Shown piece by piece: positions 40,358 through 64,000 of a stretch of DNA of 64,000 nt. Made by a program: the position numbers and the translations under genes. The DNA comes from Prevotella sp. (GTDB lineage Bacteria; Bacteroidota; Bacteroidia; Bacteroidales; Bacteroidaceae). The stretch spans positions 62,001-126,000 of the forward strand of contig JAGCDO010000002.1 in assembly GCA_017651265.1 (NCBI GenBank), written 5' to 3'. Under the pieces are notes generated by a model. It worked only from the letters and a program-made list of their open reading frames with translations, was not told where the DNA came from and ran no database searches. The stretch's first letter is position 1. Each line of letters begins with the position of its first letter.

Positions 40358-40359
40358 GA

Positions 40360-42429: not shown

Positions 42430-42447
42430 TTTTACCTAATTTGGGTG

Positions 42448-44135: not shown

Positions 44136-44188
44136 ATTAGATTTATGATTAATGAATAGATTTCGGAGAGACTGAAGAAGAGGGGAGG

Positions 44189-45199: not shown

Positions 45200-45211
45200 G
45201 AAAGGCGATGA

Positions 45212-46891: not shown

Positions 46892-46911
46892 AATAAACAA
46901 AGATTTGAAGG

Positions 46912-46997
46912 TGCCGCGAGCGGGACTCGAACCCGCACAGCCATCACTGGCCAAGGGATTTTAAGTCCCTCGTGTCTACCAATTCCACCATTGCGGC
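46912..46997 (-). tRNA. tRNA-Leu (anticodon TAA)
   Basis: This class II tRNA has acceptor GCCGCAA/TCGCGGC, anticodon loop CTTAAAA (TAA), a long variable arm and T-arm CGGGTTCGAGTCCCG. The CCA is not fully encoded (ACCT). Confidence 0.95.
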
Positions 46998-47018
46998 ATG
47001 GGTTTATGGAAAACGGTG

Positions 47019-47026
47019 CAAAGATA
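47019..47026 (-). promoter_or_regulatory. -7 box of the tRNA-Leu promoter
   Basis: TATCTTTG on the minus strand, 21 bp before the tRNA. It probably also serves the lipoprotein gene at 45212-46891. Confidence 0.7.
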
Positions 47027-47077
47027 GTCGGAATTCTTCTAAAAGCCAAAATTTTTTGCACCTTTTAATATATGCGC

Positions 47078-47632: not shown

Positions 47633-47636
47633 CTAC

Positions 47637-47719
47637 TTTGAACTTTGAATATTGAACTTTGAATATTGAACTTTGAACTTTATGATTACCACTACCGAGA
47701 AACTGTCAATTGTCAATTA
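47637..47719 (-). repeat. Two heptamer arrays (TTTGAAC x6 and RYTGTCA x2)
   Basis: TTTGAAC-type units run from 47637 to 47678, then TTTATGATTACCACTACCGAG, then ACTGTCA and ATTGTCA at 47702-47715. The argH stop codon lies inside the second array. The linker TTTATGATTAC recurs after the arrays at 49045 and 49549. Confidence 0.85.
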
Positions 47720-49040: not shown

Positions 49041-49044
49041 TTAT

Positions 49045-49129
49045 TTTGAACTTTGAACTTTGATCTTTGAACTTTATGATTACCACAGCGGCAGCAAATT
49101 ATTCACTGTTCACTATTCACTGTTCACTA
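49045..49129 (-). repeat. Two heptamer arrays (TTTGAAC x4 and TTCACTR x4)
   Basis: TTTGAAC, TTTGAAC, TTTGATC, TTTGAAC at 49045-49072, the TTTATGATTACCAC linker, then TTCACTG, TTCACTA, TTCACTG, TTCACTA at 49102-49129. The last unit contains the stop codon of the SRPBCC gene. Confidence 0.88.
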
Positions 49130-49540
49130 CTCGTACTGAATACTAGCCAGCGTCTCGGCCAGTTTCTCCAGTCCTTCGTTCAGCGGACCGGATACCATGC
49201 CCTTGATGAAGGGGTTGATGTCGGCCTTGATGGTGAGTTTCATCTTACACGTCGTCTCAGTTACAGGGAGCAGCTGCACCCATAGATTAAAAGGTATGAG
49301 CGATTGTGTTGCTTCATACTTGATGCACTTCGGCTCTTCGCGTTCCACGATATTCATGGCTACCTTACCCACAGGCTGCACATTGATGCTCACACTGTCG
49401 GCACTGAACTCGAAGTCCTTGAACTTATCCTCCGGGAACTTTCCTTCCAGCTTACCCAGATTGGATAAGTCGCTCAACGTGGCATATACCTTCTCCTGAG
49501 GGTACTCCACGATTTTTACACTACTTTCGAATGTGCTCAT
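49127..49540 (-). CDS. SRPBCC (START/Bet v1-like) family protein
   Basis: This 137-residue protein opens MSTFESSVKIVEYPQEKVYATLSDLSNLGKLEG, the usual opening of the polyketide-cyclase/SRPBCC fold, and ends with a long helix (FIKGMVSGPLNEGLEKLAETLASI). Such proteins bind hydrophobic ligands; the ligand here is unknown. The stop falls in a heptamer array. It sits between pyrE and argH on the same strand. Confidence 0.82.
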   Translation of the reverse strand: MSTFESSVKIVEYPQEKVYATLSDLSNLGKLEGKFPEDKFKDFEFSADSVSINVQPVGKVAMNIVEREEPKCIKYEATQSLIPFNLWVQLLPVTETTCKMKLTIKADINPFIKGMVSGPLNEGLEKLAETLASIQYE

Positions 49541-49548
49541 CCTATTTC

Positions 49549-49685
49549 TTTGAACTTTGAACTTTGATCTTTGAACTTTATGATTACTCTACGAATTAGA
49601 CGAATTTGACTAATATTAACCCGTTCTCGTACCTTCGTCCCCCCGTACCCCCGAGAAACTGTCAACTGTCAATTGTCAACTGTCA
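49549..49685 (-). repeat. Composite repeat: heptamer array, dispersed repeat, heptamer array
   Basis: TTTGAAC-type units at 49549-49576, TTTATGATTACTC, the second copy of the CTACGAATTAG element (49589-49614), a C/T-rich segment, then ACTGTCA, ACTGTCA, ATTGTCA, ACTGTCA at 49658-49685. It fills almost the whole pyrE to SRPBCC gap. Confidence 0.88.
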
Positions 49686-49697
49686 ACTGGCCTTACC

Positions 49698-50330
49698 TTA
49701 TCTTTTCCATCCCGCAGGATCCTTGCGCCACTGCTTCAGCAGTTCCTCGTCGCTGGCGGCGATATAGCCTGTTGCCACGGCCTCGGCCACCACATGCTCG
49801 TAGTCGGAGATGGTGAGGAGCTTAACGCCTGCGGCACGGAATGCCTCTTCGGCCACGGGGAAACCGTAGGTATAGCTGGCCACCATGCCCACTACCTCGA
49901 AGCCTGCCTTGCGCAGGGCATCGACCGCCTTCAGCGAAGAGCCGCCCGTGGAGATCAGGTCTTCCACCACAATCACCTTGGCACCTTCGGGCAGTTCACC
50001 TTCTATCTGGTTCCCCATACCATGATCTTTCGGTTTGGGGCGTACATATACATACGGCAGGTTCAGCTCATCGGCCACCAAGGCACCCTGTGCAATGGCA
50101 CCCGTAGCCACACCAGCCACAGCCTCTGCCTCAGGGAACTGCTCTAGAATCATGTGGGTGAGGGCAAGCTTCACCATCGTGCGCAGCTCAGGGTACGAGA
50201 GGGTCTTGCGGTTATCGGTATAAATAGGTGACTTCCATCCACTGGCCCATGTAAAGGGCTCGTTGGGCTGGAGCTTTACAGCTTTCACTTCCAGGAGTTT
50301 CCTGGCAAATGCTTTCTTCAATGTATCCAT
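49698..50330 (-). CDS. pyrE: Orotate phosphoribosyltransferase
   Basis: This 210-residue enzyme (EC 2.4.2.10) forms OMP from orotate and PRPP. Seen are FTWASGWKSPIYTDNRKTLSYPELR, AGVATGAIAQGALVADELNLPYVYVRPKPKDHGMGNQIEG and the PRPP loop VIVVEDLISTGGSSLKAVDALR. Length and motifs are normal. It begins the minus-strand run pyrE, SRPBCC gene, argH. Confidence 0.97.
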   Translation of the reverse strand: MDTLKKAFARKLLEVKAVKLQPNEPFTWASGWKSPIYTDNRKTLSYPELRTMVKLALTHMILEQFPEAEAVAGVATGAIAQGALVADELNLPYVYVRPKPKDHGMGNQIEGELPEGAKVIVVEDLISTGGSSLKAVDALRKAGFEVVGMVASYTYGFPVAEEAFRAAGVKLLTISDYEHVVAEAVATGYIAASDEELLKQWRKDPAGWKR

Positions 50331-50350
50331 AACTAATTAATTATTGGCGA

Positions 50351-50404
50351 CAAAGGTACGAAGAAGCGAGAGAAATTCCAAAGAAAAGCATGTTTTTCTT
50401 TGGA
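50351..50404. repeat. Palindromic repeat between divergent promoters (copy E)
   Basis: On the minus strand the element ends in TACCTTTG (50358-50351), the pyrE -7 box, after TTCTCTCGCTTCTTCG. Its core CCAAAGAAAAGCATGTTTTT..CTTTGG (50379-50404) is a near-perfect palindrome. Confidence 0.7.
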
Positions 50405-50420
50405 TTTCCATGTCATTTAT

Positions 50421-50451
50421 TTTGTATTGTTTCCACTTGTTCGTATCTTTG
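50421..50451 (+). promoter_or_regulatory. Promoter for the esterase gene
   Basis: TTTG at 50421-50424, a 19-bp spacer and TATCTTTG at 50444-50451. It rules out the upstream in-frame starts. Confidence 0.82.
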
Positions 50452-50482
50452 CAGACGAAACACTAATAACATAGAAAGTAAG

Positions 50483-51655
50483 ATGAAAAAACTATTGTTC
50501 CTGGCACTGTACCTTCTTGCAGCAGTGCCCGTGTTGGCACAACAGACACGTGTCAATATCCAGTACGACCCACAGCGTAACACCGAGGGCATCCTGCCCT
50601 TTAGTACGCAAGTGCTCTCACCTGAGGTGCGCGACGACCATACCGTCATCTTCCGCGTAAAAGCACCCGAAGCCAAGAGCGTGCAGCTCACGGGCTCGAT
50701 GTTTGTAGGACCGGAGGCGCGTAAGAGGGCTGACTTCACCAAAGGCGACGACGGCGTGTGGACCCTGACGTTAGGTCCGCTGCGCCCAGAGATCTACCTT
50801 TATTATATCATCATCGACGGTGTGCAGAACATCGATGCGAACAACGAGTTCACTGGTCATGCGGCCATGCCTTCGTTCAGTATGCTGTTTGTGCATGATG
50901 ACAAACCGGCATGGTACGACCCGAAACCTGAGGTGCCCCACGGTAGCGTCACCACGCATTATTACTATTCCAAGGTGACCAACGGACTCCGTGACATGAT
51001 GGTTTATACACCTGCAAACTACGACCCGAAGAAGAAGTACCCGGTGCTCTACCTGATGGGTGGATCGGGCGACCTTACCGAAACGTGGGTGATGCACGGA
51101 CGGGCGAACTTCATCCTCGACAATATCATTGCTGAGGGAAAGGCACGTGAGATGATTGTGTGCTTCCCCAACGACCAGATGGTGACACGCTCGCATCCCA
51201 AACACACCGAACTGGCCTTCCCCTTAGTGGAGCGCGAGTTGATAGAGTGTGTGATTCCTTATGTGGAATCTCACTATAGTGTCATCAAGGACAAACATGC
51301 CCGTGCGCTCAGCGGACTCTCCATGGGTGGACGTATGACGCAGTATGTAGGACTGCGCAACCTCGATGTGTTCGGCTCCATGGGAATCCTCTCTGCAGCC
51401 ATCGAATTGACGGAAACGCCTGTTGTCAACGAGCCCGATGTGAACAACCGCATCGACTATCTCTTCATCGGCGGCGGTACCTACGAAACGGGCTTCATGG
51501 CTCGTCATGAGCGGTTGCACGAACAACTCGATAAGTTAGGCGTAAAGCATGAGTTCTATGTAGGTGGCGGTGGAGCGCACGATCTCGTGACATGGCGGCA
51601 TCTCCTCTATTTCCGCTTCCTGCCGAACCTGTGGAGAACCAACTATAAATGGTAA
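50483..51655 (+). CDS. Secreted CE1-type esterase with N-terminal immunoglobulin-like domain
   Basis: The protein is 390 residues from ATG 50483, with a signal peptide (MKKLLFLALYLLAAVPVLAQ). Residues about 30-125 form an E-set/CBM48-like domain (HTVIFRVKAPEAKSVQLTG ... WTLTLGPLRPEIYLYYIIIDG). The alpha/beta-hydrolase of the Fes/esterase-D type follows (MVYTPANYDPKKKYPVLYLMGGSGD, nucleophile Ser in ALSGLSMGGRMT, catalytic His in GGGAHDLVTWRHLL). Such enzymes remove feruloyl or acetyl groups from plant xylan and are common in gut Prevotella. Here it has no neighbouring glycanase or SusC/D pair. Confidence 0.9.
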   Translation: MKKLLFLALYLLAAVPVLAQQTRVNIQYDPQRNTEGILPFSTQVLSPEVRDDHTVIFRVKAPEAKSVQLTGSMFVGPEARKRADFTKGDDGVWTLTLGPLRPEIYLYYIIIDGVQNIDANNEFTGHAAMPSFSMLFVHDDKPAWYDPKPEVPHGSVTTHYYYSKVTNGLRDMMVYTPANYDPKKKYPVLYLMGGSGDLTETWVMHGRANFILDNIIAEGKAREMIVCFPNDQMVTRSHPKHTELAFPLVERELIECVIPYVESHYSVIKDKHARALSGLSMGGRMTQYVGLRNLDVFGSMGILSAAIELTETPVVNEPDVNNRIDYLFIGGGTYETGFMARHERLHEQLDKLGVKHEFYVGGGGAHDLVTWRHLLYFRFLPNLWRTNYKW

Positions 51656-51662
51656 AAGGCGG

Positions 51663-52358
51663 TCAGTCTCGTGTGTAACCCAGTGAGAGAATACTGATGG
51701 CACGAGGCTTCGCTTTCATTACCTCCTGACCGCAGGCCACAAGGGTGGCGCCAGTGGTTACTACATCGTCAATCAACAGCACGTGCTTTCCAGTTAGGTC
51801 TGCAGGACGGAGCAACTGGAAAGCATTTTCTACATTCTCCCGTCTCGACCGGCGGTCTTTGAGGGTCTGACTGCCCGCGAAGGCTTTTCTACAAAGACTG
51901 TTGGGTATTACAGGAATACCCGTGGCGCTACGAATGCCCATGGCTATCTCCCAACTTTGGTTGTAACCGCGTTCCTTCTCTCGCTCTGGGGTAAGGGGAA
52001 CGGGAACAAGAATGTCGATACCCTCGAAGAATCCGCTTTCCTTTATCTCCACGGCGGTCATCTTTCCTAATTGTTCCCCAATCTCCGGATGCCCCTTGTA
52101 TTTCAGTTGGTATATCAACCGACTGGCTTCCGACTGTGCCTCATAGTAGAACAGGGCGGCAGCCTTCTCCACAGGTATCTGTATCCAGAACGTCTTGGCC
52201 ATCTCGTTGTCGAGCGGGTGCTCCCAGAAGAAGGTGCGGGGTAGATGACGGTTGCACGAAGCACATAGCACCTCTTCCGTTACCGTCATTCGCATGCCGC
52301 AAACAGGACAGGCACGTGGGGAGATCAAGTCGGCGAACCTTCTGAAGAAACTAATCAT
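51663..52358 (-). CDS. comF: ComF-family phosphoribosyltransferase-like protein
   Basis: The protein is 231 residues from ATG 52358 (MISFFRRFADLISPRACPVCGMRM); the longer frame overlaps recX out of its coding sense and is rejected. An N-terminal zinc finger CPVC...CASC is followed by a type I phosphoribosyltransferase domain with VPVPLTPEREKERGYNQS and VLLIDDVVTTGATLVACG. ComF aids DNA uptake in transformation. Its start overlaps recX by 8 bp, so the two are translationally coupled. Confidence 0.92.
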   Translation of the reverse strand: MISFFRRFADLISPRACPVCGMRMTVTEEVLCASCNRHLPRTFFWEHPLDNEMAKTFWIQIPVEKAAALFYYEAQSEASRLIYQLKYKGHPEIGEQLGKMTAVEIKESGFFEGIDILVPVPLTPEREKERGYNQSWEIAMGIRSATGIPVIPNSLCRKAFAGSQTLKDRRSRRENVENAFQLLRPADLTGKHVLLIDDVVTTGATLVACGQEVMKAKPRAISILSLGYTRD

Positions 52359-52815
52359 CGTTGATGCACTGGTGGATAATGTCCATGGTGAAACCCCGCT
52401 GCATGGCAAAGCGCATGAGTTTCTGGGTGCGCTCATAGTCGTTAGCTGCCTTGATGCTTTTCGCTTTCTGTTGCAGCAGCTGACGGAGGATTTCCACATA
52501 CTCCGATGGGTCGATCTCATCCAACACCCGTTGCTGAATACCCTTGTCGATATGCTTCATGTAGAGCGCCTGCTCGATTTTCCTACGTCCCCATTTATTA
52601 TAGATGATCTTGTCTTTCACGAAGGCACGGCAGTAACGCTCATCGTCGATGAACTGTTTCTCAATCAACTTCTCAACGATGCGTGCCTGATCCTTGGCAG
52701 GAATCTCCCAACGCTGCATCTTCTCTATCATCTCGCCTGAGCAATGCTCGGCAGAGGCGCAGAGGGCAGAGAGCTTGATGTATGCTTCTTCTGGTGTGAT
52801 GGTCTTTTTCATCAT
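52351..52815 (-). CDS. recX: Regulatory protein RecX
   Basis: This 154-residue helical protein has three RecX modules (ALCASAEHCSGEMIEKMQRW; LIEKQFIDDERYCRAFVKDKIIYNKWGRRKIEQAL; RTQKLMRFAMQRGFTMDIIHQCI). It modulates RecA filaments. Its ATG overlaps the prmC stop by a few bases and its end overlaps comF, giving a tight prmC-recX-comF operon. Confidence 0.92.
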   Translation of the reverse strand: MMKKTITPEEAYIKLSALCASAEHCSGEMIEKMQRWEIPAKDQARIVEKLIEKQFIDDERYCRAFVKDKIIYNKWGRRKIEQALYMKHIDKGIQQRVLDEIDPSEYVEILRQLLQQKAKSIKAANDYERTQKLMRFAMQRGFTMDIIHQCINDD

Positions 52816-53744
52816 GATGGATGCTTGTAAAATGTACCACGTGCAAATCGTTGCTTCCCGAAGGAGTCGTGGCGGAAGCGGATATCGCTGAACCCTTCTT
52901 CCTGCATCAGCTGCTCCAGCGGTGCAGCATAGAGCGGGTTGATCTCGAAATAGAGGTTACCGCCATCCTGTAGGGCTGTCGTGGCAAAACGGGTGATGGC
53001 GCGGTAGAACAGCAGGGGGTCTTCATCGGGAACGAACAATGCTAACGACGGCTCATGGTCGAGCACGTTCTGTTCCATCCCTTCGCGTTCCTTGTTACAT
53101 ATATAGGGAGGGTTGCTTACGATGGTATCCCATGATAGTTGATAGTTCTTCGCATAGCGAAGCGGCAGAGCCGAGCGGATAGTTGACAGTTGACAGTTAT
53201 TCGCTTTGCGAAGCGGCAAAGCCGAGGAAGGAGATATGCTTAAGATATCCACTTTCTCGAAGTTGATGTGGACATGGTTGTTTTGGGCATTTTCTTGTGC
53301 TATTCTCAACGCTTCATCAGAGATGTCCCAGGCGGTTACTTTTGATTCAGGGAGTTCTGCGGCCAAGGTGCAGGCAATACAGCCACTGCCCGTTCCTATG
53401 TCTAATATGCTTCCCCCTCTCTCATCTTTCATCTCTCCTCTCTCGTCAATGATCCACTGACATAATTCGGCGGTTTCAGGTCGGGGGATGAGTACGCCTG
53501 GTTCCACATGGAAGTGTCTGCCGCCAAATTCGGTCACGCCCGTTACATATTGCACGGGCTCACCCTGTAGCAGTCGGTTGAGCAATGCGTTCAGCTCCTC
53601 TTCGGCCAAGGTTTCCACCTTACCGCAAAGGATGTCGGTCATGGTCAACCCATAGCGAATTTCCAATAGGTAACGGGCAACCGCCTTCGCCTCACGTTCG
53701 TCATAGACGGTTGTCAACCTCTTCCACACTTCTTCGTACTTCAT
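52812..53744 (-). CDS. prmC: Peptide chain release factor N5-glutamine methyltransferase, with repeat-derived insertions
   Basis: The protein is 310 residues from ATG 53744 (MKYEEVWKRL). PrmC methylates the GGQ glutamine of release factors using SAM. Seen are the N-terminal helical domain, LIPRPETAELCQWI, the SAM loop ILDIGTGSGCIA and the NPPY active site at 211-214. Two stretches are not family-like. Residues 100-109 (DERGEMKDER) are encoded by four heptamers. Residues about 173-204 (SALPLRKANNCQLS..., a doubled unit) are encoded by two copies of a heptamer-plus-hairpin repeat. Both lie in loops next to the catalytic core, and the frame is intact, so the enzyme is probably active. Without them the length would be about 270, the family norm. 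Confidence 0.9.
   Translation of the reverse strand: MKYEEVWKRLTTVYDEREAKAVARYLLEIRYGLTMTDILCGKVETLAEEELNALLNRLLQGEPVQYVTGVTEFGGRHFHVEPGVLIPRPETAELCQWIIDERGEMKDERGGSILDIGTGSGCIACTLAAELPESKVTAWDISDEALRIAQENAQNNHVHINFEKVDILSISPSSALPLRKANNCQLSTIRSALPLRYAKNYQLSWDTIVSNPPYICNKEREGMEQNVLDHEPSLALFVPDEDPLLFYRAITRFATTALQDGGNLYFEINPLYAAPLEQLMQEEGFSDIRFRHDSFGKQRFARGTFYKHPS
53134..53228 (-). repeat. Two tandem copies of a heptamer-plus-hairpin element inside prmC
   Basis: Read on the plus strand: GATAGTT x2 then TTCGC-ATA-GCGAA and CGGC-AGA-GCCG (53134-53177), followed by GATAGTT, GACAGTT, GACAGTT, then TTCGC-TTT-GCGAA and CGGC-AAA-GCCG (53178-53227). The GACAGTT units are the same heptamer as AACTGTC at 49658-49685. 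Confidence 0.85.
53420..53447 (-). repeat. Heptamer array inside prmC
   Basis: On the minus strand: GACGAGA, GAGGAGA, GATGAAA, GATGAGA. It shares the 18-bp run GAGATGAAAGATGAGAGA with the array at 24759-24786. Confidence 0.85.
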
Positions 53745-53748
53745 GATG

Positions 53749-53756
53749 CAAAGGTA
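53749..53756 (-). promoter_or_regulatory. -7 box of the prmC promoter (copy F of the repeat)
   Basis: TACCTTTG on the minus strand ends only 4 bp before the prmC ATG, so the message should be leaderless. Upstream are TTCTCTCACTTATGCG and the palindrome AAAACTAGTTTT (53781-53792), a shortened version of the palindromic repeat. Confidence 0.7.
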
Positions 53757-53826
53757 CGCATAAGTGAGAGAAGTACAAAATAAAACTAGTTTTCTTTTCC
53801 CCAACCTAATCTTATATAAAGAAAAA

Positions 53827-53838
53827 TTTGTATTTTTG
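53827..53838 (+). promoter_or_regulatory. -7 box of the ribD promoter
   Basis: TATTTTTG at 53831-53838, 56 bp before the ribD ATG, divergent from the prmC promoter. Confidence 0.5.
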
Positions 53839-53894
53839 CACTCGTAATAGTGGTGTTAGGATATATGACAACCAAGTAACCGTTCCATCAATAG

Positions 53895-54854
53895 ATGAAA
53901 GAAACTGACGAGAAGTACATGCGGCGTTGCTTGCAACTGGCAGCCAATGGTAGGCAGAACGCTAAGCCGAACCCGATGGTGGGGGCGGTGATTGTATCTG
54001 CCGACGGGCGAATTATCGGCGAGGGCTATCATGTGCGCTGCGGGGAAGGTCATGCGGAGGTGAACGCCTTTGCATCCGTGAGGAAGGAGGATGAGCCGCT
54101 GCTGAAGGAGGCCACCATCTATGTGTCGTTGGAGCCCTGCTCGCACTATGGGAAGACACCGCCCTGTGCCGACCTGATTATTCATAAAGGTGTGCGCCGA
54201 GTGGTGGTGGGCTGTATCGATGAGTTTGCCAAGGTGCAGGGAAGGGGGATACAGAAACTGCGCGATGCGGGAATTGAGGTAACGGTGGGCGTATTGGAAA
54301 AGAAGTGTCAGCTCTTGAACCGCCGCTTCTTTACTTATCACCGTCTGCACCGTCCGTATATCATCTTGAAATGGGCGCAGACGGAAAACGGTTTCATCGA
54401 TGATCATGGAAAACCTCTCGCCATTTCCACGCCCTTCACCAAGATGCTGGTGCATAAGCTGAGGGCAGAAGAGGATGCCATCCTTGTAGGAAGAATTACT
54501 GATGAGCGGGAGCATCCCCAGCTCAATGTCCGCGAATGGGTGGGCCCTAATCCTTTACGAATGGTACTCGACCATGAGCATCCGCTCGACTTGCAGCATC
54601 TTTACGACCAGCAGATACAATCACTCATCGTGGAAGGCGGTGCCAAAACCCTTCAATCCTTTATCGACCAAGATCTTTGGGATGAGATCCGTGTAGAAAC
54701 ATCTCCCCTTCAAGTTGATGACGGCACCCCTGCTCCGATCATTCCTGTCGATGCGGTCATTACCGATTGTCAGGAATACGACGGGAACAAGATTACGTGG
54801 TGGGTTAACTGCCACCGCCGTTCATGGAGTTCACCACCACCTTTCTCGTCATAA
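53895..54854 (+). CDS. ribD: Bifunctional riboflavin biosynthesis protein RibD
   Basis: This 319-residue protein has an N-terminal deaminase (GEGHAEVNAFASV and PCSHYGKTPPCADLI zinc sites) and a C-terminal reductase (RPYIILKWAQTENGFID; LRAEEDAILVGRITDEREHPQLNVR; SLIVEGGAKTLQSFIDQDLWDEIRVETSP). It converts the GTP-derived pyrimidine in two steps of riboflavin synthesis. The family-like sequence ends at about DGNKITWWVN; the last residues (CHRRSWSSPPPFSS) are encoded by DNA that, on the opposite strand, reads as the tail of an unrelated secreted-protein gene. The stop codon therefore looks acquired by a recombination junction near 54805. Activity should be preserved. Confidence 0.92.
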   Translation: MKETDEKYMRRCLQLAANGRQNAKPNPMVGAVIVSADGRIIGEGYHVRCGEGHAEVNAFASVRKEDEPLLKEATIYVSLEPCSHYGKTPPCADLIIHKGVRRVVVGCIDEFAKVQGRGIQKLRDAGIEVTVGVLEKKCQLLNRRFFTYHRLHRPYIILKWAQTENGFIDDHGKPLAISTPFTKMLVHKLRAEEDAILVGRITDEREHPQLNVREWVGPNPLRMVLDHEHPLDLQHLYDQQIQSLIVEGGAKTLQSFIDQDLWDEIRVETSPLQVDDGTPAPIIPVDAVITDCQEYDGNKITWWVNCHRRSWSSPPPFSS

Positions 54855-55176: not shown

Positions 55177-56397
55177 CTACACCCTGATATAATCAGCTAG
55201 ATTTTCATTCCATTGAATTAAAGCCCTTCCTATCGAAGACATCATCTGATTAACTTCTTCAAGTGAGTCTGGTGGGCACTCCAATCCATTAGGCTCATAG
55301 TTTGATTTTGCATGAACGATGCTATTTCTTGTTGAATACAGAATATTAGCTACTTGCTTTTTCAGACTCATCTGCTGTTCGTTAGAAAGTGCTATTGTTT
55401 CTATTTTCACTTTTTCTTCAATCCCGAGTTGATGTTTCACCGTTTTTTGAAGGGTTTGGGGCAGATGATAGAAATCGGGAACAACATCTATACATGTCTG
55501 AATAACAGAAATGGCCAGAAAATCGTCTTTCTGATTATCCCTATACCCTTTCGCGATGTCAAGAAGGGTATCCATATAGTGATAGTCACGAAGTGTTGTG
55601 TCAGGCAAACTTAAATGCTCATGAAACTGATCAAAAGCATTCTTCTTTGCTACTGCCGGAGAGACATACTCAATCATCTTATAGTAATGTAGAAAAGCAA
55701 TGGATGGATTCATAGCCTCTTTTGCCTCCCTGTACATGTTCAACAACTCTGTATGTTTTGGTATAGCATCAATATCTATCTCCATGTCTGTGCTCACCTC
55801 TTCTGTATCAGCATATATTACAGCATCGTCTTCATCGGCATATCCAATAAACTCATCCACATCTATTACCTCAGACACATACACGGCAATACCTACTCTA
55901 CGTGTCAAATCAAACAAGACTCGTTCCACCAATTTTATCTCATCCTGTTTGTTTAGCCTGTTGTTGTCAGAATATCTTAATTCTAGCGCCCAATATGTTG
56001 AGCATGGGAATAGGCCATAATTATCATCATAATAGTTGTCTCTACTATTCTGTAATCCCACAAGGAAAGGCTCACTTACAACTTGAATTGCATAATTGGG
56101 ACCTGTGTATGATAATTCTTCTAATTTCGAGAGAATATATGGCGAGCCATGCCGATTTGTATCAATAATTATCTGTCTTACATGTTTTGTTGACACAGTG
56201 CTGTTATTAACCCTTTTTAAAGTTTTAATATCGGACATGTAATCCAAGAAGTCGTCAACATCGTAAGATGACGCATCCATTTCATCTGGAAAGTCCACAA
56301 GAACACATTCCTCGTCTTCATCTATTTGACAAGAAACACTATCATCTTCTAAAAGAGTAAAAAACTCTTGTAATTGTTTCTTTTTAAAATCATCCAT
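55177..56397 (-). CDS. HEPN-motif protein (putative RNase)
   Basis: This 406-residue cytoplasmic protein is acidic, especially in residues 1-70. The middle region (YWALELRYSDNN; LVERVLFDLTRRVGIAVYVSEVID) is unrecognised. From about 230 it is helical, with FLHYYKMIEYVSPAVAKKN, and near the C-terminus RNSIVH at 357-362, which fits the R-x4-H motif of HEPN ribonucleases; an Asn after the Arg is the common form. HEPN proteins cut RNA in toxin-antitoxin, Abi and CRISPR-linked systems. The gene is last in the minus-strand island, 172 bp after the TPR-GreC-PIN gene, and is AT-rich compared with the core genes. Family assignment rests on the motif and helical context only. Confidence 0.7.
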   Translation of the reverse strand: MDDFKKKQLQEFFTLLEDDSVSCQIDEDEECVLVDFPDEMDASSYDVDDFLDYMSDIKTLKRVNNSTVSTKHVRQIIIDTNRHGSPYILSKLEELSYTGPNYAIQVVSEPFLVGLQNSRDNYYDDNYGLFPCSTYWALELRYSDNNRLNKQDEIKLVERVLFDLTRRVGIAVYVSEVIDVDEFIGYADEDDAVIYADTEEVSTDMEIDIDAIPKHTELLNMYREAKEAMNPSIAFLHYYKMIEYVSPAVAKKNAFDQFHEHLSLPDTTLRDYHYMDTLLDIAKGYRDNQKDDFLAISVIQTCIDVVPDFYHLPQTLQKTVKHQLGIEEKVKIETIALSNEQQMSLKKQVANILYSTRNSIVHAKSNYEPNGLECPPDSLEEVNQMMSSIGRALIQWNENLADYIRV

Positions 56398-56569
56398 AAA
56401 TGTCGAAATTCACAGTCTAAACGATACTCTGTTGCACATTCGGAAATCTCAATCTTTCTTATTCTTGATCCGAAGAAGCGATTCCTTAATCTATAATACA
56501 TCAATTTCAGTCTTAGCAATAACAATGGATTATTATGCCTATGTGTCGAGAATTCAAATTCGTACAGAT

Positions 56570-59500
56570 CTACTCCTCTGTATACGTATTATACCCCGGC
56601 AGAATGATAACATTACATATTCTGGCTGCATCAGTAAGACACATTTTTACTATCCTTGTGTTCCGGTATTGATAAGGAATCCTCGAAAGGGTATTAGTAA
56701 TAAGTTCGCTTTTCAAGTCATTTCTTAATGACTTTATCATGGCCACAAACATATTAGTTATGGTAATTCTGGCCAAGCTGATGTCCTTTGTCTCCGTCAC
56801 AATCTGAAAACCTGCATTGAGGATATTGGCACAAATAGCTGCATTATGGCTGGCATTCTGCATGATGTAGTTAATCTTGTTTGGCTGTGCCAATTCCATC
56901 TTCTTATACTCTGTTACTATAAATTCCTTTGTCAGGTTGACACCTATATAGTTACATCGTATTAAGAAATCGCAATATGATTTATAGTCTCTTCCTCCAT
57001 CCCTATACTTCATATATGCCTCCGTTGAAATGATAAAGCCTAAACCTCTCAACTTCATCTCTATGGCATGATCATCTGTAACCAGGCAACGTGTCGGTTC
57101 ATTCAGTAGCAGACTGACAGTATTGGCAAGTAGAACCTGTAATTCACTCTTTTCAGGTATAACATCCAACGAGAGAGCTTTTTCAGGGAATACCTTATCA
57201 CAATTCTCATCCATCCACCTTACTAGTTTACTCATTCTTATTTCAACGTCAGCCCACAACCGCTTATTATATCGTTTAAGAATACCCGATGACAGTGCAT
57301 AACTGAATTCTATCATCGATAACAGCCTGCTATTTTTCATCGTTGATACGATATACTCATAGGTCGTCGCTGAAATAAGAAATTTGTCATTGTATTGACA
57401 GCCAGATGATTGTTGATATTCAAACAGCATGATTATAGCTGTCAAATCCAACACATAGGATATTTTGTGACGAACCATTTGAGGCCTCACAACCTCATCA
57501 AACATCTGACATGGTGCAACAAACACTTTTGACGATGTAAATAACCTGTCATAATACCCCTCTATAATCTCATTGCTATTTACTAATTGTGCGATACCAA
57601 TCTCCCCATTCTCATACGCTTCTTGTTGTTGGAGCATCCTTTGATGGTAATTGATAGAATTTGGATCTATCTGCTTCAACACCTCTTCAAGACTCTCAAG
57701 AGGTCTGCTCTCGTCAATCTTGAAAGGTTTCATAAATGGATTTGCGCCAGTAAGATTCTCTTGCATAAGATCAAACTCGAGCTTTCCATATATGTTCATA
57801 ACAGAAACAACGGTAACATTTACAGGTTTGCCTTCTATTGTTATCGACAGTTTATCTCCGTCTTTACATCCTAACAACTGTTCGCCAATCTCATATCCGA
57901 CACCTGCTTCATATAATATCCTTTGGCCGTCTGGCAACAAGCAGAGCACATAAAGACCATTTTTAGCTTCATCAAACTTCTTTCGAGTTAGATTTGCAAG
58001 ATGACCCATAGAACTTTCATGCATATAAAAGGTCTTTATGCCCCAATCAGAAGAGTCTTTTACATTCCTATATAATATTTCTGCAGCTGTATCATAATAG
58101 TTGTTTTCTCCAAATAACCGATAAAGCTGAATAACATTTTGGAAAGAATCATACTTAAAACTGATTGCCTTGCTCTCGTATTCTGATAGTTTCTGTGGAT
58201 AAAGTCTGCCTGTCAGTTTAAGATAGTTCGTAAACGCATTCTCCTCCTGAGGATATTGATTATATAGAATCGAAACAACTTCATAGGCATTCTCATAATC
58301 AGCAACCCTCATGGATAACTGATACTCCATCTCCAAAAGCGGAGTATCATACATTTCTCCACTTTTTCTATTCTCTTTCAGCAACCTGTAAAGATGCGGT
58401 TTCTCCTCTGGCAATTTATTAAGAATATCCAAGAAGATTCGCTGTCTTACATTACTCGTCTTTTCATCTACTTTTGGTGATAATAACTTAAATGCCAACT
58501 TCTCCTCACCATGTTCCGACAAAACCATAGCTGCATAAGCTATCATGTCATCCGACAGCCCCTCCAGACTATTCTTCAACAAATCTACATCTACATTCTT
58601 TCCAGTATAATGCTTGCATAGCTGGGACAACACAATATAGTTATTCTTATCCTCAAAAGCTTCTTTTTCTATGATGCCCTCAATTTCCTGCGCACTTGCT
58701 TTGTTTATACAGAATGCAATATACCTAGATGAATCCGAATTAAAAAGGAATTCGTTATGTTTTCTAACATCAAAAATCCACCTCAGGTATTCTGTATTAT
58801 TCGAGTGATAGCCCATTAAAACGACATAGTTTGCTATCGCAACATTTATTTTATCCTTGATAGATGCAAGATTGGTGAAAGCTTCACTATATCGTTTGCT
58901 CATCATAAGCATCGACGTTTGTGTAAGCACCAAGTCTTCTTGGCGTCTATCCAAATCCCGAGGCTCCATCTTCAATATTTCATCTACCCACGATGGATGC
59001 TGGTCAAGTACATATCCCCAATAGCAGTAGTTTACATGAACCATTTTCAGATGTCGCTCTATCTCTGTCTTACAAAGATAGGAATAGAATGCTTTTGTAT
59101 ATTCAAAGGCACTTTTATACTTACTGAAATCCAAATTTGGAGGAACCGCCAAGAATAACATACCACCCAAATTAACATTATGACATGTAATTCCATAAAG
59201 CCATCCAAAAACATTTAGGTATGTTAAACTCTCATAAGGCTCATCTCCAGTCCCATCAAAAAGAAATTCCGAATCCTGATTTTTATTACCCCTTATTGAT
59301 AATATCTCATACCTAAGATTGTTATTTGACTTCAATTCATTAGGCAATTTCTGATAAGATGCCACTATATCCTTTGAAGCCAAAACACTTGCCACATTTC
59401 TAATAACATTGTCAGAAGGAAGTTCCTCTGACAGTTTTAACGCTTCGCCAGTTTTTCCTTCATACAACAACGTATAACATTCTTTTTCTATTATAAGTTC

Positions 59501-60298
59501 ATCTTTGGGGTACAATTTATAGGCCTCATGAAATAGCTTAAGGGCTTTTTGTGGTGAAGAGAAAAGTTCCGCCATACCTTTCAGTAGAGCAACTTTTGCT
59601 GCGATAATTGGATTTTCTTCTATATAATGTACTAAAGAAGATTCAAGTTCTTTTAGCAACTGTTTTGCACTATCAAGAAGCAATCTGTTAACAAGGTTGG
59701 TTATAGAGACATTCAGGAAAGCTACAATCAATGCCTCTATTGCAGCCTTGTTTTCCCCTGGGGATTCCTTTTGACTCAGTATATTCTTTATTTCTTCTAT
59801 GCGAGATAAAGCCTCCGATAATTGTTGTTGATTTGATTCGAAGCCAGCTTGTATTTGGTCAGATATGAATTCAAGGTGTTGGGTTAGCTTTACATTTTGA
59901 ATCTCTATCTTATTCTCAATAACGAAATCATAACATACGGAATCGCTTTTCAATTCCTCTATCCAGTATTTGATAAGTTCTTGGTATGATTCTGGTATCT
60001 CATTTCCTTCTAAGACTTTTTGCAGATCTTGAAAATGAGTATTCATCCGACTTTTTTCTATATCTCTAACGCCTCTATTAACTGACCATCTCTTGAGTGC
60101 TTTTTTAAAACACTCATCGATTCTGTCACCGAGCCCCTTTTTACGGTTAATCAAATCCCGCAATGTAGGAACATTATTTGCGGCATATGAAATAGCAAAA
60201 TTAGCAAATATACCCATAAGCGTTAATGTAGTCGTTTCCATCATTCCTTTTTCAAACCATAAAGAGGCATGACCACCCTTTTGCCCATACCTCTTCAT
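56570..60298 (-). CDS. TPR / GreA-B-C-terminal-like / PIN-domain protein
   Basis: This 1242-residue protein has a hydrophobic stretch near the N-terminus (TLTLMGIFANFAISYAANNVPTL), coiled helices to about 210, and helical TPR-like repeats at about 210-780 (SPQKALKLFHEAYKLYPKDELIIEKECYTLLYEGKTGEALKLSEEL). At about 785-840 is a segment like the C-terminal FKBP-like domain of GreA/GreB (YEIGEQLLGCKDGDKLSITIEGKPVNVTVVSV). A PIN-like domain at about 945-1095 has VLDLTAIIMLFE (Asp951) and CLVTDDHAIEMKLRGLGF. To my recollection computational surveys of conflict systems describe a TPR-GreAB-C-PIN architecture, and this fits. PIN domains cut RNA. ATG 60241 (METTTLTLMG) is an alternative start. Confidence 0.78.
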   Translation of the reverse strand: MKRYGQKGGHASLWFEKGMMETTTLTLMGIFANFAISYAANNVPTLRDLINRKKGLGDRIDECFKKALKRWSVNRGVRDIEKSRMNTHFQDLQKVLEGNEIPESYQELIKYWIEELKSDSVCYDFVIENKIEIQNVKLTQHLEFISDQIQAGFESNQQQLSEALSRIEEIKNILSQKESPGENKAAIEALIVAFLNVSITNLVNRLLLDSAKQLLKELESSLVHYIEENPIIAAKVALLKGMAELFSSPQKALKLFHEAYKLYPKDELIIEKECYTLLYEGKTGEALKLSEELPSDNVIRNVASVLASKDIVASYQKLPNELKSNNNLRYEILSIRGNKNQDSEFLFDGTGDEPYESLTYLNVFGWLYGITCHNVNLGGMLFLAVPPNLDFSKYKSAFEYTKAFYSYLCKTEIERHLKMVHVNYCYWGYVLDQHPSWVDEILKMEPRDLDRRQEDLVLTQTSMLMMSKRYSEAFTNLASIKDKINVAIANYVVLMGYHSNNTEYLRWIFDVRKHNEFLFNSDSSRYIAFCINKASAQEIEGIIEKEAFEDKNNYIVLSQLCKHYTGKNVDVDLLKNSLEGLSDDMIAYAAMVLSEHGEEKLAFKLLSPKVDEKTSNVRQRIFLDILNKLPEEKPHLYRLLKENRKSGEMYDTPLLEMEYQLSMRVADYENAYEVVSILYNQYPQEENAFTNYLKLTGRLYPQKLSEYESKAISFKYDSFQNVIQLYRLFGENNYYDTAAEILYRNVKDSSDWGIKTFYMHESSMGHLANLTRKKFDEAKNGLYVLCLLPDGQRILYEAGVGYEIGEQLLGCKDGDKLSITIEGKPVNVTVVSVMNIYGKLEFDLMQENLTGANPFMKPFKIDESRPLESLEEVLKQIDPNSINYHQRMLQQQEAYENGEIGIAQLVNSNEIIEGYYDRLFTSSKVFVAPCQMFDEVVRPQMVRHKISYVLDLTAIIMLFEYQQSSGCQYNDKFLISATTYEYIVSTMKNSRLLSMIEFSYALSSGILKRYNKRLWADVEIRMSKLVRWMDENCDKVFPEKALSLDVIPEKSELQVLLANTVSLLLNEPTRCLVTDDHAIEMKLRGLGFIISTEAYMKYRDGGRDYKSYCDFLIRCNYIGVNLTKEFIVTEYKKMELAQPNKINYIMQNASHNAAICANILNAGFQIVTETKDISLARITITNMFVAMIKSLRNDLKSELITNTLSRIPYQYRNTRIVKMCLTDAARICNVIILPGYNTYTEE

Positions 60299-60401
60299 AC
60301 TTTTTATCTTTCATCCACAATTCCTAATATTCATATTTCCAGCTCCGCTTCGTCACCTCACCTCTTGCATCATCTTTCCTTTACTCCTCTCGTTAGTATA
60401 T

Positions 60402-61130
60402 TCACGAAGAAATAAAGTTTACAATCAGTCCCGACATTACTCCCAAGATAATCGTGCATATAATCGTTATAAAGATAAAGTTCCTTGTCTTATCCTTTTT
60501 CTTCATAAACTTTTTCTGCTCTCCTATAACAAAGCCCCCTTCAAGAAAGAGGTAATCCACAATCTTCCTGATACCATATACTGAGGTCAACATACAAATG
60601 AACGACCATCCTGTCAATAATGAGGTCTTGTTTTCTTTCATTGACCATTGCTCCATGCCTAGGCTCAAATAATAATATGCAACCACTACACAGTAAAATA
60701 TGAATCCCAGCGCAACATAAAATGAAGGCCTGTGAAGCCACCAATAAGCAGTCTTAGTGCTCTTCACAAATTCATCTACTCTTTGGGTTATGTGTGTAAT
60801 TTCAGCTTCCTCCAGTTTCTTTAATGTCAGGATACAAGATGCATCATATTCCGACATATCGAAAAGTGAAATCGAGAATTCTGGATAGTAGCCATTACCA
60901 TCTTTATTTTTGTATCCACTAATCGAAATACTTACTATTTTCCTCGAATCTGGATTATTATATGTTATCAAATCATCGATAGTTGGCAATTTATATTTAG
61001 CACCATCGATCGTTTTTATTTCATATTCCACAGCACAAAACCTCTCCTCCACGATACCCGCCAGATACCGTAAATGGTCTTCGTCCACTAAAATGGGGCG
61101 ATTATATGATTTATCCAGTGATCCTATCAT
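60402..61130 (-). CDS. Three-TM membrane protein of unknown function
   Basis: The protein is 242 residues from ATG 61130 (MIGSLDKSYNRPILVDEDHLRYL); the longer frame overlaps the channel gene. Residues 1-135 are soluble and mixed alpha/beta (FCAVEYEIKTIDGAKYKLPTIDDLI; RKIVSISISGYKNKDGNGYYPEFSISLFD). Hydrophobic helices follow at about 135-158, 175-195 and 215-240. Such a soluble-domain-plus-TM plan is common for membrane-acting effectors, but I recognise no family. Its ATG lies 4 bp after the channel stop, so it is coupled to it. Confidence 0.7.
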   Translation of the reverse strand: MIGSLDKSYNRPILVDEDHLRYLAGIVEERFCAVEYEIKTIDGAKYKLPTIDDLITYNNPDSRKIVSISISGYKNKDGNGYYPEFSISLFDMSEYDASCILTLKKLEEAEITHITQRVDEFVKSTKTAYWWLHRPSFYVALGFIFYCVVVAYYYLSLGMEQWSMKENKTSLLTGWSFICMLTSVYGIRKIVDYLFLEGGFVIGEQKKFMKKKDKTRNFIFITIICTIILGVMSGLIVNFISS

Positions 61131-61134
61131 TCCT

Positions 61135-62085
61135 TTATTCCTTCTTCTTAATAATCCCATCCACAATAAACCCAACAACAAACAGGCATATCAGCAATTC
61201 TAGTATTGCCGCAAACCTCGTAGCCCCGTTATTCGGAGCTATATCCCCGAAACTCACGGTCGTACTAACACAGATGCTATAGTATAGAAAGTCCATCCAA
61301 CTCACAGAATTCCTTCTGTTAGCATGGAAATCAACAGCCGATTGTCTGATTCTCGACGTTACATTCCTGCGCTCGCTTTCCACTTCCTGAATGTCCCACG
61401 TCAACTGTATGTAACCATCATTGCACCTCCTTATCTGATGTGAGAGACTGTCTGGTATAAAGTTTCCTATATACTGACCGAACATTGCCTCAACTTTAGC
61501 TTTCCTCTTTGCATACTCGTACTGCAACTGCGCCAATTCCACATACTTACCTTCTATAATCATTTTGGTAGTGTCCTTGCCTTCCAAATAACGTTCCAGG
61601 CTATCTATCCGTTCTTGATAACCTGATAGCAGCTCTACCCTGACCTTATTAACAGAATCAGTCATCATTTTCGAAGCAATGCGGCTCAATGAATCCCACT
61701 GTACTTTTAATTTCTTAATTGCATCCTTTTTCAATATCAGGGAGTCATTTGTAGATTGCAGTTTCTCCAAGTCCGGCATTATCATGTTGCTGAATTCGCT
61801 GATAGTTATGGGCATGCTGTCCTTGGCATTTCTATGATATGCCGCTAGGTCTATATCAGTTTGCAAAAACTCATATCTCTCAACATATTTGTTCAACTGG
61901 TCAGAAATCAAATATGCCGTAGAGTTATTGAAGAATATTAGCCAGTTGACAGTTGCAAACACCACCACGATAAAGACATACGCTACAATCATTGCTTTAA
62001 GGGGATGCTTTTTCGCTTTCTCTTTCAAGCAATCTATTACCCAGTCTATACAAACTGCCAAGTGTTTAACTATCCTCCTCAACAT
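61135..62085 (-). CDS. Two-TM ion channel with a large coiled extracytoplasmic domain
   Basis: This 316-residue protein has TM1 at about 31-52 (MIVAYVFIVVVFATVNWLIFF), about 205 polar helical residues rich in Lys, Glu, Asp and Leu, a pore loop STTVSFGDIAPN at about 272-283, and TM2 at about 288-311. The TVSFGD filter is a variant of the K+-channel TVGYGD. In ordinary two-TM channels the TM1-pore turret is short, so the inserted coiled domain is unusual and may be a sensor or an oligomerisation stalk. Start and stop overlap or nearly touch both neighbours (7-bp overlap with the nuclease-like gene), so it is inside an operon. Confidence 0.8.
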   Translation of the reverse strand: MLRRIVKHLAVCIDWVIDCLKEKAKKHPLKAMIVAYVFIVVVFATVNWLIFFNNSTAYLISDQLNKYVERYEFLQTDIDLAAYHRNAKDSMPITISEFSNMIMPDLEKLQSTNDSLILKKDAIKKLKVQWDSLSRIASKMMTDSVNKVRVELLSGYQERIDSLERYLEGKDTTKMIIEGKYVELAQLQYEYAKRKAKVEAMFGQYIGNFIPDSLSHQIRRCNDGYIQLTWDIQEVESERRNVTSRIRQSAVDFHANRRNSVSWMDFLYYSICVSTTVSFGDIAPNNGATRFAAILELLICLFVVGFIVDGIIKKKE

Positions 62086-63242
62086 TTTCGTAGTCTATTT
62101 ATGTACAACAATAACACATCTAACATGCAACGCCATCTGTTGCCCTTCTTCCGTAATTTCTTTACTCCATATCTGTATTTCCCCTCTTCAAACTTTCCTC
62201 CATACCGCTTCATCAAATCCTCTTCCAGATTTTTAAAGAATTTAAAGCCATATGTATTTTTATCATCATTCACGAAATCGCACGCATGGTGGATGAAGTT
62301 GGTTGTTTTCAGTTCCTCATCCTCGTATCGGTAGAAACCATACAATTTTCTCTTTCCTTTTTCAGAACCAGAGCAGAATATAATACCTTTTATGTAACTG
62401 AATTCATTGCAATTCAGAATTCCTGGCCTTTCCAATAGCTTGTCAAAATTACCTTTTCCCTCAAATTCTGGCCAAGAGAAAATCCGCTCACCTTCTATAC
62501 CAAATGCAATCATCCACAACCTTCCGCTTGCAGAGTAGTGTCTTAGCACATTAGGGTAAACTGGCAGACATTCCTCAACTTTGAAAGGAAACATATATTG
62601 GCTCATATCAACAAACAATATCGTATCCTCCCCGTTCCCATAATTAAACTGGCTCGGCTTGATGTTGTTGCAGATTTTCTTATTAAACTCTTCTATCTCT
62701 GCAGTAGGTCCTGTGTCTTTATCTCCCAATGGCGAGACGCAATATTCCGAAGAGCAAAATCTGCGACCTCTGATACGTTGTTTCTCTATTCGCACATTGC
62801 TCTCAAAAGCCGCATCCTGTGCCTTTTTATATTCTTCATTACCGTTTGCATACGCCAAAGACTTCACCTCAAGATACACTTTTCCCGTCTTCTGAGCCCC
62901 ATCCCCTTCCGTATACGTAAATTCAACTTCAAAGTCAGGGGTTGATGATGATGCCTCTGGAATACCACGGACGATAAATCCACGCTGCAGTAAATCGTAG
63001 TATGTAACTGCCTCGTTATACGCATCAAACGCTGACAGATAGTGACCATTAAATTCGAAGCTACTCGCAAGTTCCAACTCCTTTAAGCATGACTTCACTC
63101 TACTGGCAACGAAACCATCTGTTGGCACAAGGCTGTCCAGTATCTTGCAATAATCCAGATCCATTGCCCCAAGCGTAGGGTTACATGTTATTTGGCTAAC
63201 CTCCTGCTTCTTTTTCAGTACTGTATTGTATAACGATTCCAT
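62079..63242 (-). CDS. PD-(D/E)XK nuclease-like protein
   Basis: This 387-residue soluble protein opens with a helical region, then STPDFEVEFTYTEGDGAQKTGKVYLEVKSLAYANG at about 118-152: an Asp in PDFEVEF followed by LEVKSL, the pattern of PD-(D/E)XK restriction-type nucleases. A later conserved-looking core strand (DTILFVDMSQYM) and a basic C-terminus (KKLRKKGNRWRCMLDVLLLYINRLRKC) follow. It is probably a DNase, either an effector or a core component of the island. It starts the coupled block nuclease-channel-3TM. No promoter box is evident in the 202-bp gap upstream, which holds only C/T-rich stretches. Confidence 0.68.
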   Translation of the reverse strand: MESLYNTVLKKKQEVSQITCNPTLGAMDLDYCKILDSLVPTDGFVASRVKSCLKELELASSFEFNGHYLSAFDAYNEAVTYYDLLQRGFIVRGIPEASSSTPDFEVEFTYTEGDGAQKTGKVYLEVKSLAYANGNEEYKKAQDAAFESNVRIEKQRIRGRRFCSSEYCVSPLGDKDTGPTAEIEEFNKKICNNIKPSQFNYGNGEDTILFVDMSQYMFPFKVEECLPVYPNVLRHYSASGRLWMIAFGIEGERIFSWPEFEGKGNFDKLLERPGILNCNEFSYIKGIIFCSGSEKGKRKLYGFYRYEDEELKTTNFIHHACDFVNDDKNTYGFKFFKNLEEDLMKRYGGKFEEGKYRYGVKKLRKKGNRWRCMLDVLLLYINRLRKC

Positions 63243-63444
63243 GTATTACATCAATTTAAGTTCTCCGTTATTTCGTGTTTCCGCTCTTCGAGCGTCCCCA
63301 TTGAGGCATAAAGAGGTATGCGCAAAAAAACATACCCCTTCAACAATCTCCTATCCCTTCATCTCCATAAATCCATTATTCTGCTCCTCCGCTCAGCGGC
63401 TTCGTCCCCACCTCAGCACAAACTCTAAACATACCCCATATTAT

Positions 63445-64000
63445 CTATAAGCACACCCGCTCAGAGCAAGCTGTACTCCGATATTCATTCTCAAACTTTT
63501 CAATATGCTTTTTCCCTATCTCGACCAACCCTTTCAATTCTTCTGCAGCACCTATTCCCGCTTTAAGCAAGACAATATTGCAATAACCAATCTCCGCATT
63601 GAATTTATCCAGTAAGAATTGTTCGATAGGACTTATCAACTTGCTCTTTGTTCGTATCTCACTATTCAATTGAGCCAAACGTTCACTATAGTAGCCTTTC
63701 ACATCTCCAATCGTAACTACATCATTTACCTTAGAACCAAGAAGATACACTCCAACAGCAGCCTTAACAAAATCGTTCTTCACTAAGTCTTTGGCTTTAG
63801 ATACGATGTTTTCAGCCGACAATTCTGTCAGTTTCTTACATGATGGCAAATCTTTGATAGGTACCATTGTTCTTGCGATATCCTTTAGCTCACAAAGCAT
63901 ATCCACGATATCAAGCGTTGCAATTCTTATATCCAAATCATCTTTGGTTTGATATGCTTTTACCTTATTCACACAACGTTGCATGCCCAACATTGACGTT
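63445..64000 (-). CDS. Hypothetical helical protein, possibly incomplete
   Basis: The frame gives 182 residues from the ATG at 63993 and stays open to the window edge, so the start may lie outside. The sequence is helical with no clear membrane segment (IRIATLDIVDMLCELKDIARTM; LSAENIVSKAKDLVKNDFVKAAVGVYLLGSKVNDVV). It has cysteines near both ends and a long C-terminal helix (GIGAAEELKGLVEIGKKHIEKFENEYRS). No family is recognised. It is the most upstream visible gene of the island on this strand. Confidence 0.6.
   Translation of the reverse strand, partial: TSMLGMQRCVNKVKAYQTKDDLDIRIATLDIVDMLCELKDIARTMVPIKDLPSCKKLTELSAENIVSKAKDLVKNDFVKAAVGVYLLGSKVNDVVTIGDVKGYYSERLAQLNSEIRTKSKLISPIEQFLLDKFNAEIGYCNIVLLKAGIGAAEELKGLVEIGKKHIEKFENEYRSTACSERVCL

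Follow-up and report, generated by a model that had tools for sequence, protein, structure and literature searches.

A probable defense island of separately acquired cassettes, with a candidate nuclease-channel operon, at a Prevotella contig end

The AT-rich region that closes the window (the whole 64,000-nucleotide stretch of Prevotella sp. DNA analyzed here) is probably a defense island of separately acquired cassettes beside a ribD-like gene, not one system. The proposed cassettes would be (i) g1 alone, (ii) g2 alone, (iii) an operon of g5, g4, and g3, preceded by g6 in each of the two copies known, and (iv) outside the window, two gene pairs, Kiwa and DUF262-HEPN. The g5-g4-g3 combination of a nuclease-like protein and a membrane channel may be undescribed and is a candidate module. 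The genes are as follows.

ribD-like gene: 53895..54854, plus strand; left border of the island, named from our own reading of the translation
g1: 55177..56397, minus strand; 406 aa; HEPN-like motif RNSIVH (residue 357) in the C-terminal part
g2: 56570..60298, minus strand; TPR-GreA/B-C-PIN-type protein, 1242 aa as called, PIN by motif only
g3: 60402..61130, minus strand; 242-aa membrane protein with a soluble N-terminal part and two to three helices
g4: 61135..62085, minus strand; putative two-helix channel, pore TTVSFGD, approximately 200 residues from TM1 to the pore
g5: 62079..63242, minus strand; PD-(D/E)XK-like, with invariant T101-P102-D103 and E125-x-K127
g6: 63445..64000 (cut), minus strand; 243 aa, complete in L002:10446-11177, equivalent to window position 64176
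Outside the window, past g6: NusG-like gene, 339-aa gene, KwaB, KwaA, HEPN gene, DUF262 gene

Positions 55177 to 64000 of the minus strand hold a run of six successive open reading frames, exactly where the first-pass annotation had placed six consecutive genes. Its remark that they are richer in A+T than the rest also held, with G+C contents of 36.6 to 40.7% versus 51.7% for window positions 40000 to 54854. The window edge truncates g6; the contig ends 6.2 kb farther on and the island extends that far; its total length is at least 14.6 kb, and it is open at the contig end. Past the edge lie the Kiwa genes (KwaB, 1.3e-84; KwaA, 1e-14) and a DUF262 gene that matches NsnA (1.6e-59) and PD-T4-2_A (8.8e-54) and pairs with a HEPN gene, which bears out the suspected defense context. 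On the other side, an RNase-H-like and/or argS-like gene (names again from our own reading of translations) was found 3' of the ribD-like gene within 6.7 kb in 6 of 10 relatives, five of them within approximately 4 kb; the distance is 6.7 kb at locus L069. Plasmid and phage searches gave nothing of use except one g5 match. Scans of viral contigs with g5, g4, g6, and alignments A1, A3, and A4 were likewise unproductive, as were a scan of genome contigs with alignment A1 and an Rfam search. The counts of promoters (50 versus 53.5 in shuffles) and terminators (11 versus 9.6) were close to those of shuffled sequence.

The first-pass annotation had proposed one undescribed six-gene system. In such a composite conflict system of six or more genes, RNases of HEPN and PIN type would act jointly with a nuclease and with membrane proteins. 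The genes share a strand and have similar G+C contents, and since the gaps between g1 and g2 (172 nt) and between g2 and g3 (103 nt) are short, a single transcript across all of them is possible; the NusG-like gene, which lies upstream of g6, might provide antitermination along the entire run. The g1, g2, and g6 relatives found, however, have no neighbors in common with the island. Although the samples are small, neither of the two full-length g2 relatives has g1 or any of g3 to g6 within the approximately 20 kb fetched. One of the two g1 relatives (genome G009, locus L031) is solitary, without other island genes, and the second sits at a contig end. The three g6 relatives found also have neighbors that differ from those in the window: one (L032) adjoins an MqsA/Panacea-like gene, and a similar 327-aa gene was recognized by eye in L033. 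Moreover, a second copy of the block (L036, described below) keeps g6-g5-g4-g3 though the body of g2 is gone. Within these few relatives, the outcome is the one that the first-pass annotation had named as counting against its proposal, a failure of the genes to co-occur in other genomes. We therefore regard a single system of this kind as very unlikely and prefer the other reading offered at first pass, that of unrelated cassettes in a defense island. In place of the single claim we propose a partition in which g1 and g2 each form a cassette of their own, the latter of a published type, beside an adjoining Kiwa system and one small operon. In L032, a DUF262-like stretch occurs in a gene approximately 6 kb from the g6 relative, so some parts of the island recur near one another. 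No known family for g6 was found in Pfam.

The R-x4-6-H motif that marks the HEPN superfamily is present in g1 as R357-x4-H362 and is kept in all three alignment rows, one of which is 91% identical. Residues 212 to 384, a span that includes the motif, match the PADLOC family DzbB (E, 1.6e-6), and residues 219 to 255 only match Pfam MauJ (8.7e-7; 30.3 bits versus a cutoff of 28); we take both families to be HEPN-like. The HEPN assignment made at first pass is thus upheld by motif and DzbB match, but no HEPN-named model in Pfam, PADLOC, or NCBIfam matched g1. A PDB profile search with g1 was empty, and the labels RamB and SufC, below cutoff, were taken as chance. Through its DzbB match, g1 resembles Dazbog (DzbA/DzbB in PADLOC), a system that needs DzbA; this partner was not found among the six window genes, of which g1 is the only one with a PADLOC match. 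Presumably an RNase, g1 is probably a single-gene cassette.

For g2, the best fit is the family of TPR-GreA/B-C-PIN conflict proteins, which are mostly standalone and variable at the N terminus according to Kaur et al. (2021; PMC8195603); the architecture, which the first-pass annotation had noted from computational surveys, is in print there. In the same paper, the PIN version is termed hitherto undetected, the Gre domain is predicted to dock on RNA polymerase and the PIN domain to cut transcripts, and the N-terminal domain, for which 13 effector types are given, is predicted to be an effector or adaptor. By analogy, g2 would dock on RNA polymerase through its Gre domain and cut transcripts with its PIN domain, its N terminus serving as effector or adaptor. 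Both the standalone habit and the variable N terminus were found for g2, although among few relatives. The likeness to the proteins of PMC8195603 may extend to weak Gre-C and TPR-type signals and PIN-like acidic residues; the two relatives also have no neighbors in common with the window. Other defense-like genes do lie near them (in L010, the R subunit of a type I restriction system; in L009, a DEAD helicase).

Among the individual domains of g2, the signals for GreA/B-C are weak but consistent: the Pfam matches in two of three family members (E, 0.043 to 0.05) are below cutoff, and the only three PDB profile matches (E, 0.75 to 1.8) each fall on a Gfh1/GreA C terminus; a PDB profile search with the whole of g2 gave nothing of use. 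TPR-type matches were also below cutoff only (ARM_TT21_N, 0.0029; TPR_14, 0.09), and an unrelated TehB match (0.014) is of like strength. Four acidic residues, D951, E960, D1017, and D1075, are invariant across three sequences and presumably of PIN type, but no PIN profile in Pfam, PADLOC, or NCBIfam matched, and a comparison of the C-terminal profile with one PIN_4 protein sequence was negative. The PIN and GreA/B-C assignments made at first pass are accordingly kept as putative. Judged from relatives, g2 probably starts at 60244 or 60241. Pfam gives no match for its N-terminal domain, which is also found on large EruA-like proteins in two genomes (G229 and G293). In comparison with PMC8195603, a domain common to TPR-GreC-PIN-type and EruA-like proteins fits the interchangeable effector-associated domains described there. 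The open-licence literature searched gave no paper on the name GreAB-C-PIN or on EruA. Further PIN-domain defense genes are reported in PMC13092281.

The remaining genes include a compact operon: the reading frames of g5 and g4 share 7 nt, and 4 nt separate the end of g4 from the ATG of g3, in agreement with the tight spacing first reported. This ATG is the preferred start of g3, a TTG at 61181 being less likely. The ion channel claimed for g4 was confirmed by an Ion_trans_2 match above the Pfam cutoff (7.6e-10; 39 bits versus 22.5) and by a pore loop with filter and pore helix, as in K+ channels. The filter, TTVSFGD at residue 275, is a variant of the usual TVGYGD, and we infer a two-helix topology from helices at residues 33 to 51 and 294 to 312. 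TM1 and the region after it align with a hybrid histidine kinase of the same genus (G730); in g4, by contrast, a pore and a second helix take the place of the kinase and receiver domains. A reading of this match as chance was dropped, since both TM1 and the next part of the kinase align. Only one such kinase was found, in 1 of 119 other genomes of the genus, and because 2 of 500 pattern-keeping shuffles reached the similarity of the coil alone, the likeness rests largely on TM1. The sensor-like first helix and following region suggest that g4 is a sensor-gated channel. A PDB match of g4 to a ribosomal protein (E, 0.0091) and many labels below cutoff were taken as chance.

Of the three transmembrane segments ascribed to g3, two are strong helices at a cutoff of 1.6, but the third was seen by eye only. 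A diverged relative (23% identity) occurs in G004 without a channel gene. In g5, the TPD and E-x-K residues are invariant in four of four sequences, one of them 93% identical, whereas no PD-(D/E)XK profile matched in Pfam, PADLOC, NCBIfam, or PDB profiles; the proposed PD-(D/E)XK identity is retained as a likeness by conserved residues. Across 301 genomes of the family, its own included, there were no other true matches for g5 and one for g3, and a carrier of g2 (G291) had neither. A further g5 match (E, 7.8e-4), in G167, was rejected because we read the gene as one for ribosomal protein S2.

For this operon we propose, with low confidence, a membrane-sensing defense mechanism. The inter-helix region of g4, resembling a sensor-kinase input module, would detect envelope disturbance at phage entry and open the pore; g3 would be the membrane partner of g4, and g5 would attack nucleic acid. 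As an undescribed antiphage system, to which we would likewise give only a small chance, it would fuse a two-component input module to an ion pore in the kinase's place. Disturbance of the envelope would then open a channel directly, and the membrane partner and a PD-(D/E)XK nuclease would form a second arm. Should the operon prove defensive, the direct coupling of an ion pore to a sensor of kinase type would offer a new and simple route from envelope sensing to cell shutdown. Kiwa, Zorya, and SNIPE pair a membrane sensor with a DNA-acting protein, as described in PMC12904381, and g5-g4-g3 similarly joins membrane proteins to a nuclease-like protein. It differs from them in its K+-channel-type pore and in that g3, g4, and g5 have no PADLOC match (E up to 1), to KwaA or KwaB included; a true Kiwa lies outside the window. 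The operon was not recognized as a defense system in PADLOC 2.0 (2023), Pfam, or NCBIfam, and no paper on Ion_trans_2 with defense was found in the open-licence literature.

The second g6-g5-g4-g3 block, on a rumen metagenome-assembled genome contig (L036), is 96.9% identical in DNA over 3,907 bases. Next to it, g2 is broken off near residue 176, with a frameshift before that point, followed by sce7726, sce7725, and RES genes. Because 2,140 bases are identical between the copies, they are not independent witnesses. The g5-g4-g3 order is known from these two copies only, and L036, a short metagenome contig, may be an assembly mosaic. Alternatively, g5 could be a single-gene cassette of its own and g4-g3 a separate membrane pair, the three-gene operon being a chance junction. 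The identical tract, which holds g4 and g3 entire and only the last 316 of the 1,164 bases of g5, agrees with such a junction, as do the g5 relatives on an Acinetobacter plasmid and in G336, both without a channel gene. The overlapping and 4-nt-spaced reading frames and the conserved order in L036 argue against it, and we give this alternative appreciable, though minor, weight.

The preferred reading, an island of cassettes, also has to be set against that of a decaying, nonfunctional remnant of mobile elements, which the AT-rich composition, the rarity of the genes, and the broken g2 in L036 might suggest. This is the least probable of the explanations: all six frames are intact on this contig, catalytic-type residues are kept in relatives, and between the two copies g5 has a dN of 0.034 and a dS of 0.223 (dN/dS, approximately 0.15).

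Six minus-strand frames, designated g1 to g6 from left to right, are present as the first-pass annotation claimed in the window (positions 62001-126000 on a contig of 132,217 bases; assembly size, 3.16 Mb). They are AT-richer than the rest, with G+C contents of 36.6 to 40.7% versus 51.7% in window 40000-54854, and spacing is tight: the g5 and g4 frames share 7 nt, and the ATG of g3 (at 61130) lies 4 nt after g4. Beyond the window edge, past which g6 (243 aa) extends, the same contig (stretch L002) carries the following genes.

L002:11203-11805, NusG-like gene, some 25 bases from g6 on its upstream side
Past the NusG-like gene and before KwaB, a 339-aa gene
L002:13635-15087 (window-equivalent 66634-68086), Kiwa pair KwaB and KwaA, just past the window edge
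L002:15137-16841, near the contig end, overlapping HEPN_MAE_28990 and DUF262/GmrSD_N genes

The NusG-like gene, which we take to be of the UpxY type, is possibly an antiterminator for the island. PADLOC identified KwaB (1.3e-84) and KwaA (1e-14; a KwaA-like membrane protein), and assigned the DUF262 gene to NsnA (1.6e-59) or PD-T4-2_A (8.8e-54). Judged by similarity, the DUF262/GmrSD_N and HEPN_MAE_28990 genes are a further predicted defense pair of known type. Because Kiwa and NsnA/PD-T4-2_A-like genes adjoin it, the region is a defense island, whatever the six genes are. Its left border is a ribD-like gene. We searched for ribD in 24 genomes of the genus (own included) and fetched flanks from 10, in which gene names are our own reading. 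An RNase-H-like and/or argS-like gene lay 3' of ribD in 6 of these, at about 4 kb or less in L063, L064, L065, L068, and L070 and at 6.7 kb in L069; other genes were found there in L066, L067, L071, and L072. Island genes were absent at ribD in all 10 stretches, of which L068 and L070 reach only ~5 kb past it.

The HEPN-like motif of g1 was confirmed: R-x4-H is present in all three rows of the alignment with its relatives and is covered by a DzbB match, and a MauJ match falls only before it. There were two other g1 relatives among 201 genomes. One is solitary; the other, a C-terminal piece with 94% identity that lies at the end of a contig in another genus (L030:8530-8964), points to a recent transfer of g1. 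For g2, TPR-type and Gre signals were both weak, and conserved acidic residues were read as PIN. Matches occurred in 4 other genomes of 301 (G291 and G280 over most of the length, two in approximately the first 150 residues only), and the 19- to 20-kb stretches around all four held no other island genes. The N-terminal-only matches sit on 1540- and 1567-aa proteins with an EruA-like stretch (EruA being a NACHT protein according to the model name) that scored 49 to 50 bits, far below the model cutoff of 1000. An N-terminal domain without a Pfam match is common to g2-type proteins and these two large ones (L011:10291-10773, L012:8580-9122, and window 59773-60298). For the family that g2 best fits, PMC8195603 describes mostly standalone genes, in agreement with g2 here; it proposes docking on RNA polymerase via the Gre domain, with PIN cutting transcripts and the variable N terminus as a second line.

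Family searches with g3 and g6 gave nothing above a cutoff. One other g3 was found among 301 genomes, without partners, and three other g6 relatives were found among 151 (L032, L033, and L034, the last on a 4.8-kb contig). The relative is accompanied by genes of 121 and 329 aa in L032 and of 114 and 327 aa in L033; the larger gene matches Panacea (above the cutoff) and MqsA antitoxin (below it) models in L032 and looks similar by eye in L033. A g6 relative and its two neighbors (L032:3961-6046, L033:9829-11764) are possibly a three-gene toxin-antitoxin unit. One observation speaks against a reading as separate cassettes: about 6 kb from the L032 relative is a gene that resembles DUF262 along 215 residues (29.8%). 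Co-occurrence samples differ in size from gene to gene; in these samples, the g2 relatives without other island genes, the solitary g1 relative, and the different neighbors of g6 relatives leave the proposed single six-gene system unsupported and favor the alternative raised with it, unrelated cassettes. A defense island of separate cassettes is supported, and the remaining novelty would be a rare, small candidate operon, g5-g4-g3.

The original observation stands in part: the frames and the g1 and g4 motifs were confirmed, and the PD-(D/E)XK-like g5 had no match in a profile search, its TPD and ExK being unchanged in all four sequences. Apart from its own genome, g5 had no real match among 301 family genomes, one relative among 395 phylum genomes (G336, near its contig end), and one among 72,556 plasmids (Acinetobacter); no channel gene lies next to either relative, as far as the G336 contig extends. 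The channel assignment of g4 is upheld by an Ion_trans_2 match and TTVSFGD at 275, with helices at 33-51 and 294-312. No g4 was found among 201 family genomes besides its own, and one other match was found among 120 genus genomes, own included. That match, the sole distant one, lies in G730 (E 2.6e-4) and is a hybrid histidine kinase, with kinase and receiver domains, to which TM1 and the region after it align with a local score of 111 (shuffle maxima, 54 plain and 68 with the hydrophobic pattern kept; 500 shuffles each). TM1 alone scored 55 versus maxima of 44 and 49, and the coil alone scored 66, a value that none of the 500 plain shuffles and 2 of the 500 pattern-keeping ones reached. Because of these scores, the sequence resemblance is well supported at TM1 and moderately supported in the coil. 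A membrane sensor with a DNA-acting protein characterizes the class of Zorya, Kiwa, and SNIPE (PMC12904381). This class is the nearest working analogy, and g5-g4-g3 might at most work like it; no PADLOC match made the operon a member.

A second copy occurs in the rumen MAG RUG13824, on a contig of 7,223 bases (L036) that contains the final 80 residues of g6, followed by g5, g4, g3, and approximately the first 176 residues of g2, frame shifted by a one-base insertion. Identity to the window is 96.9% across 3,907 bases. Every base of g4 and g3 is identical, within a tract (window 62394 to 60255) whose flanks are ~92% and ~95% identical; this tract could stem from recent recombination or from a two-strain mosaic assembly. 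The g2 break is followed by sce7726, sce7725, and a RES-domain gene, so that, if the contig is real, g6-g5-g4-g3 adjoins a different cassette there. The Lachnospiraceae label of this MAG on Bacteroidota-type island sequence reflects either misbinning or transfer.
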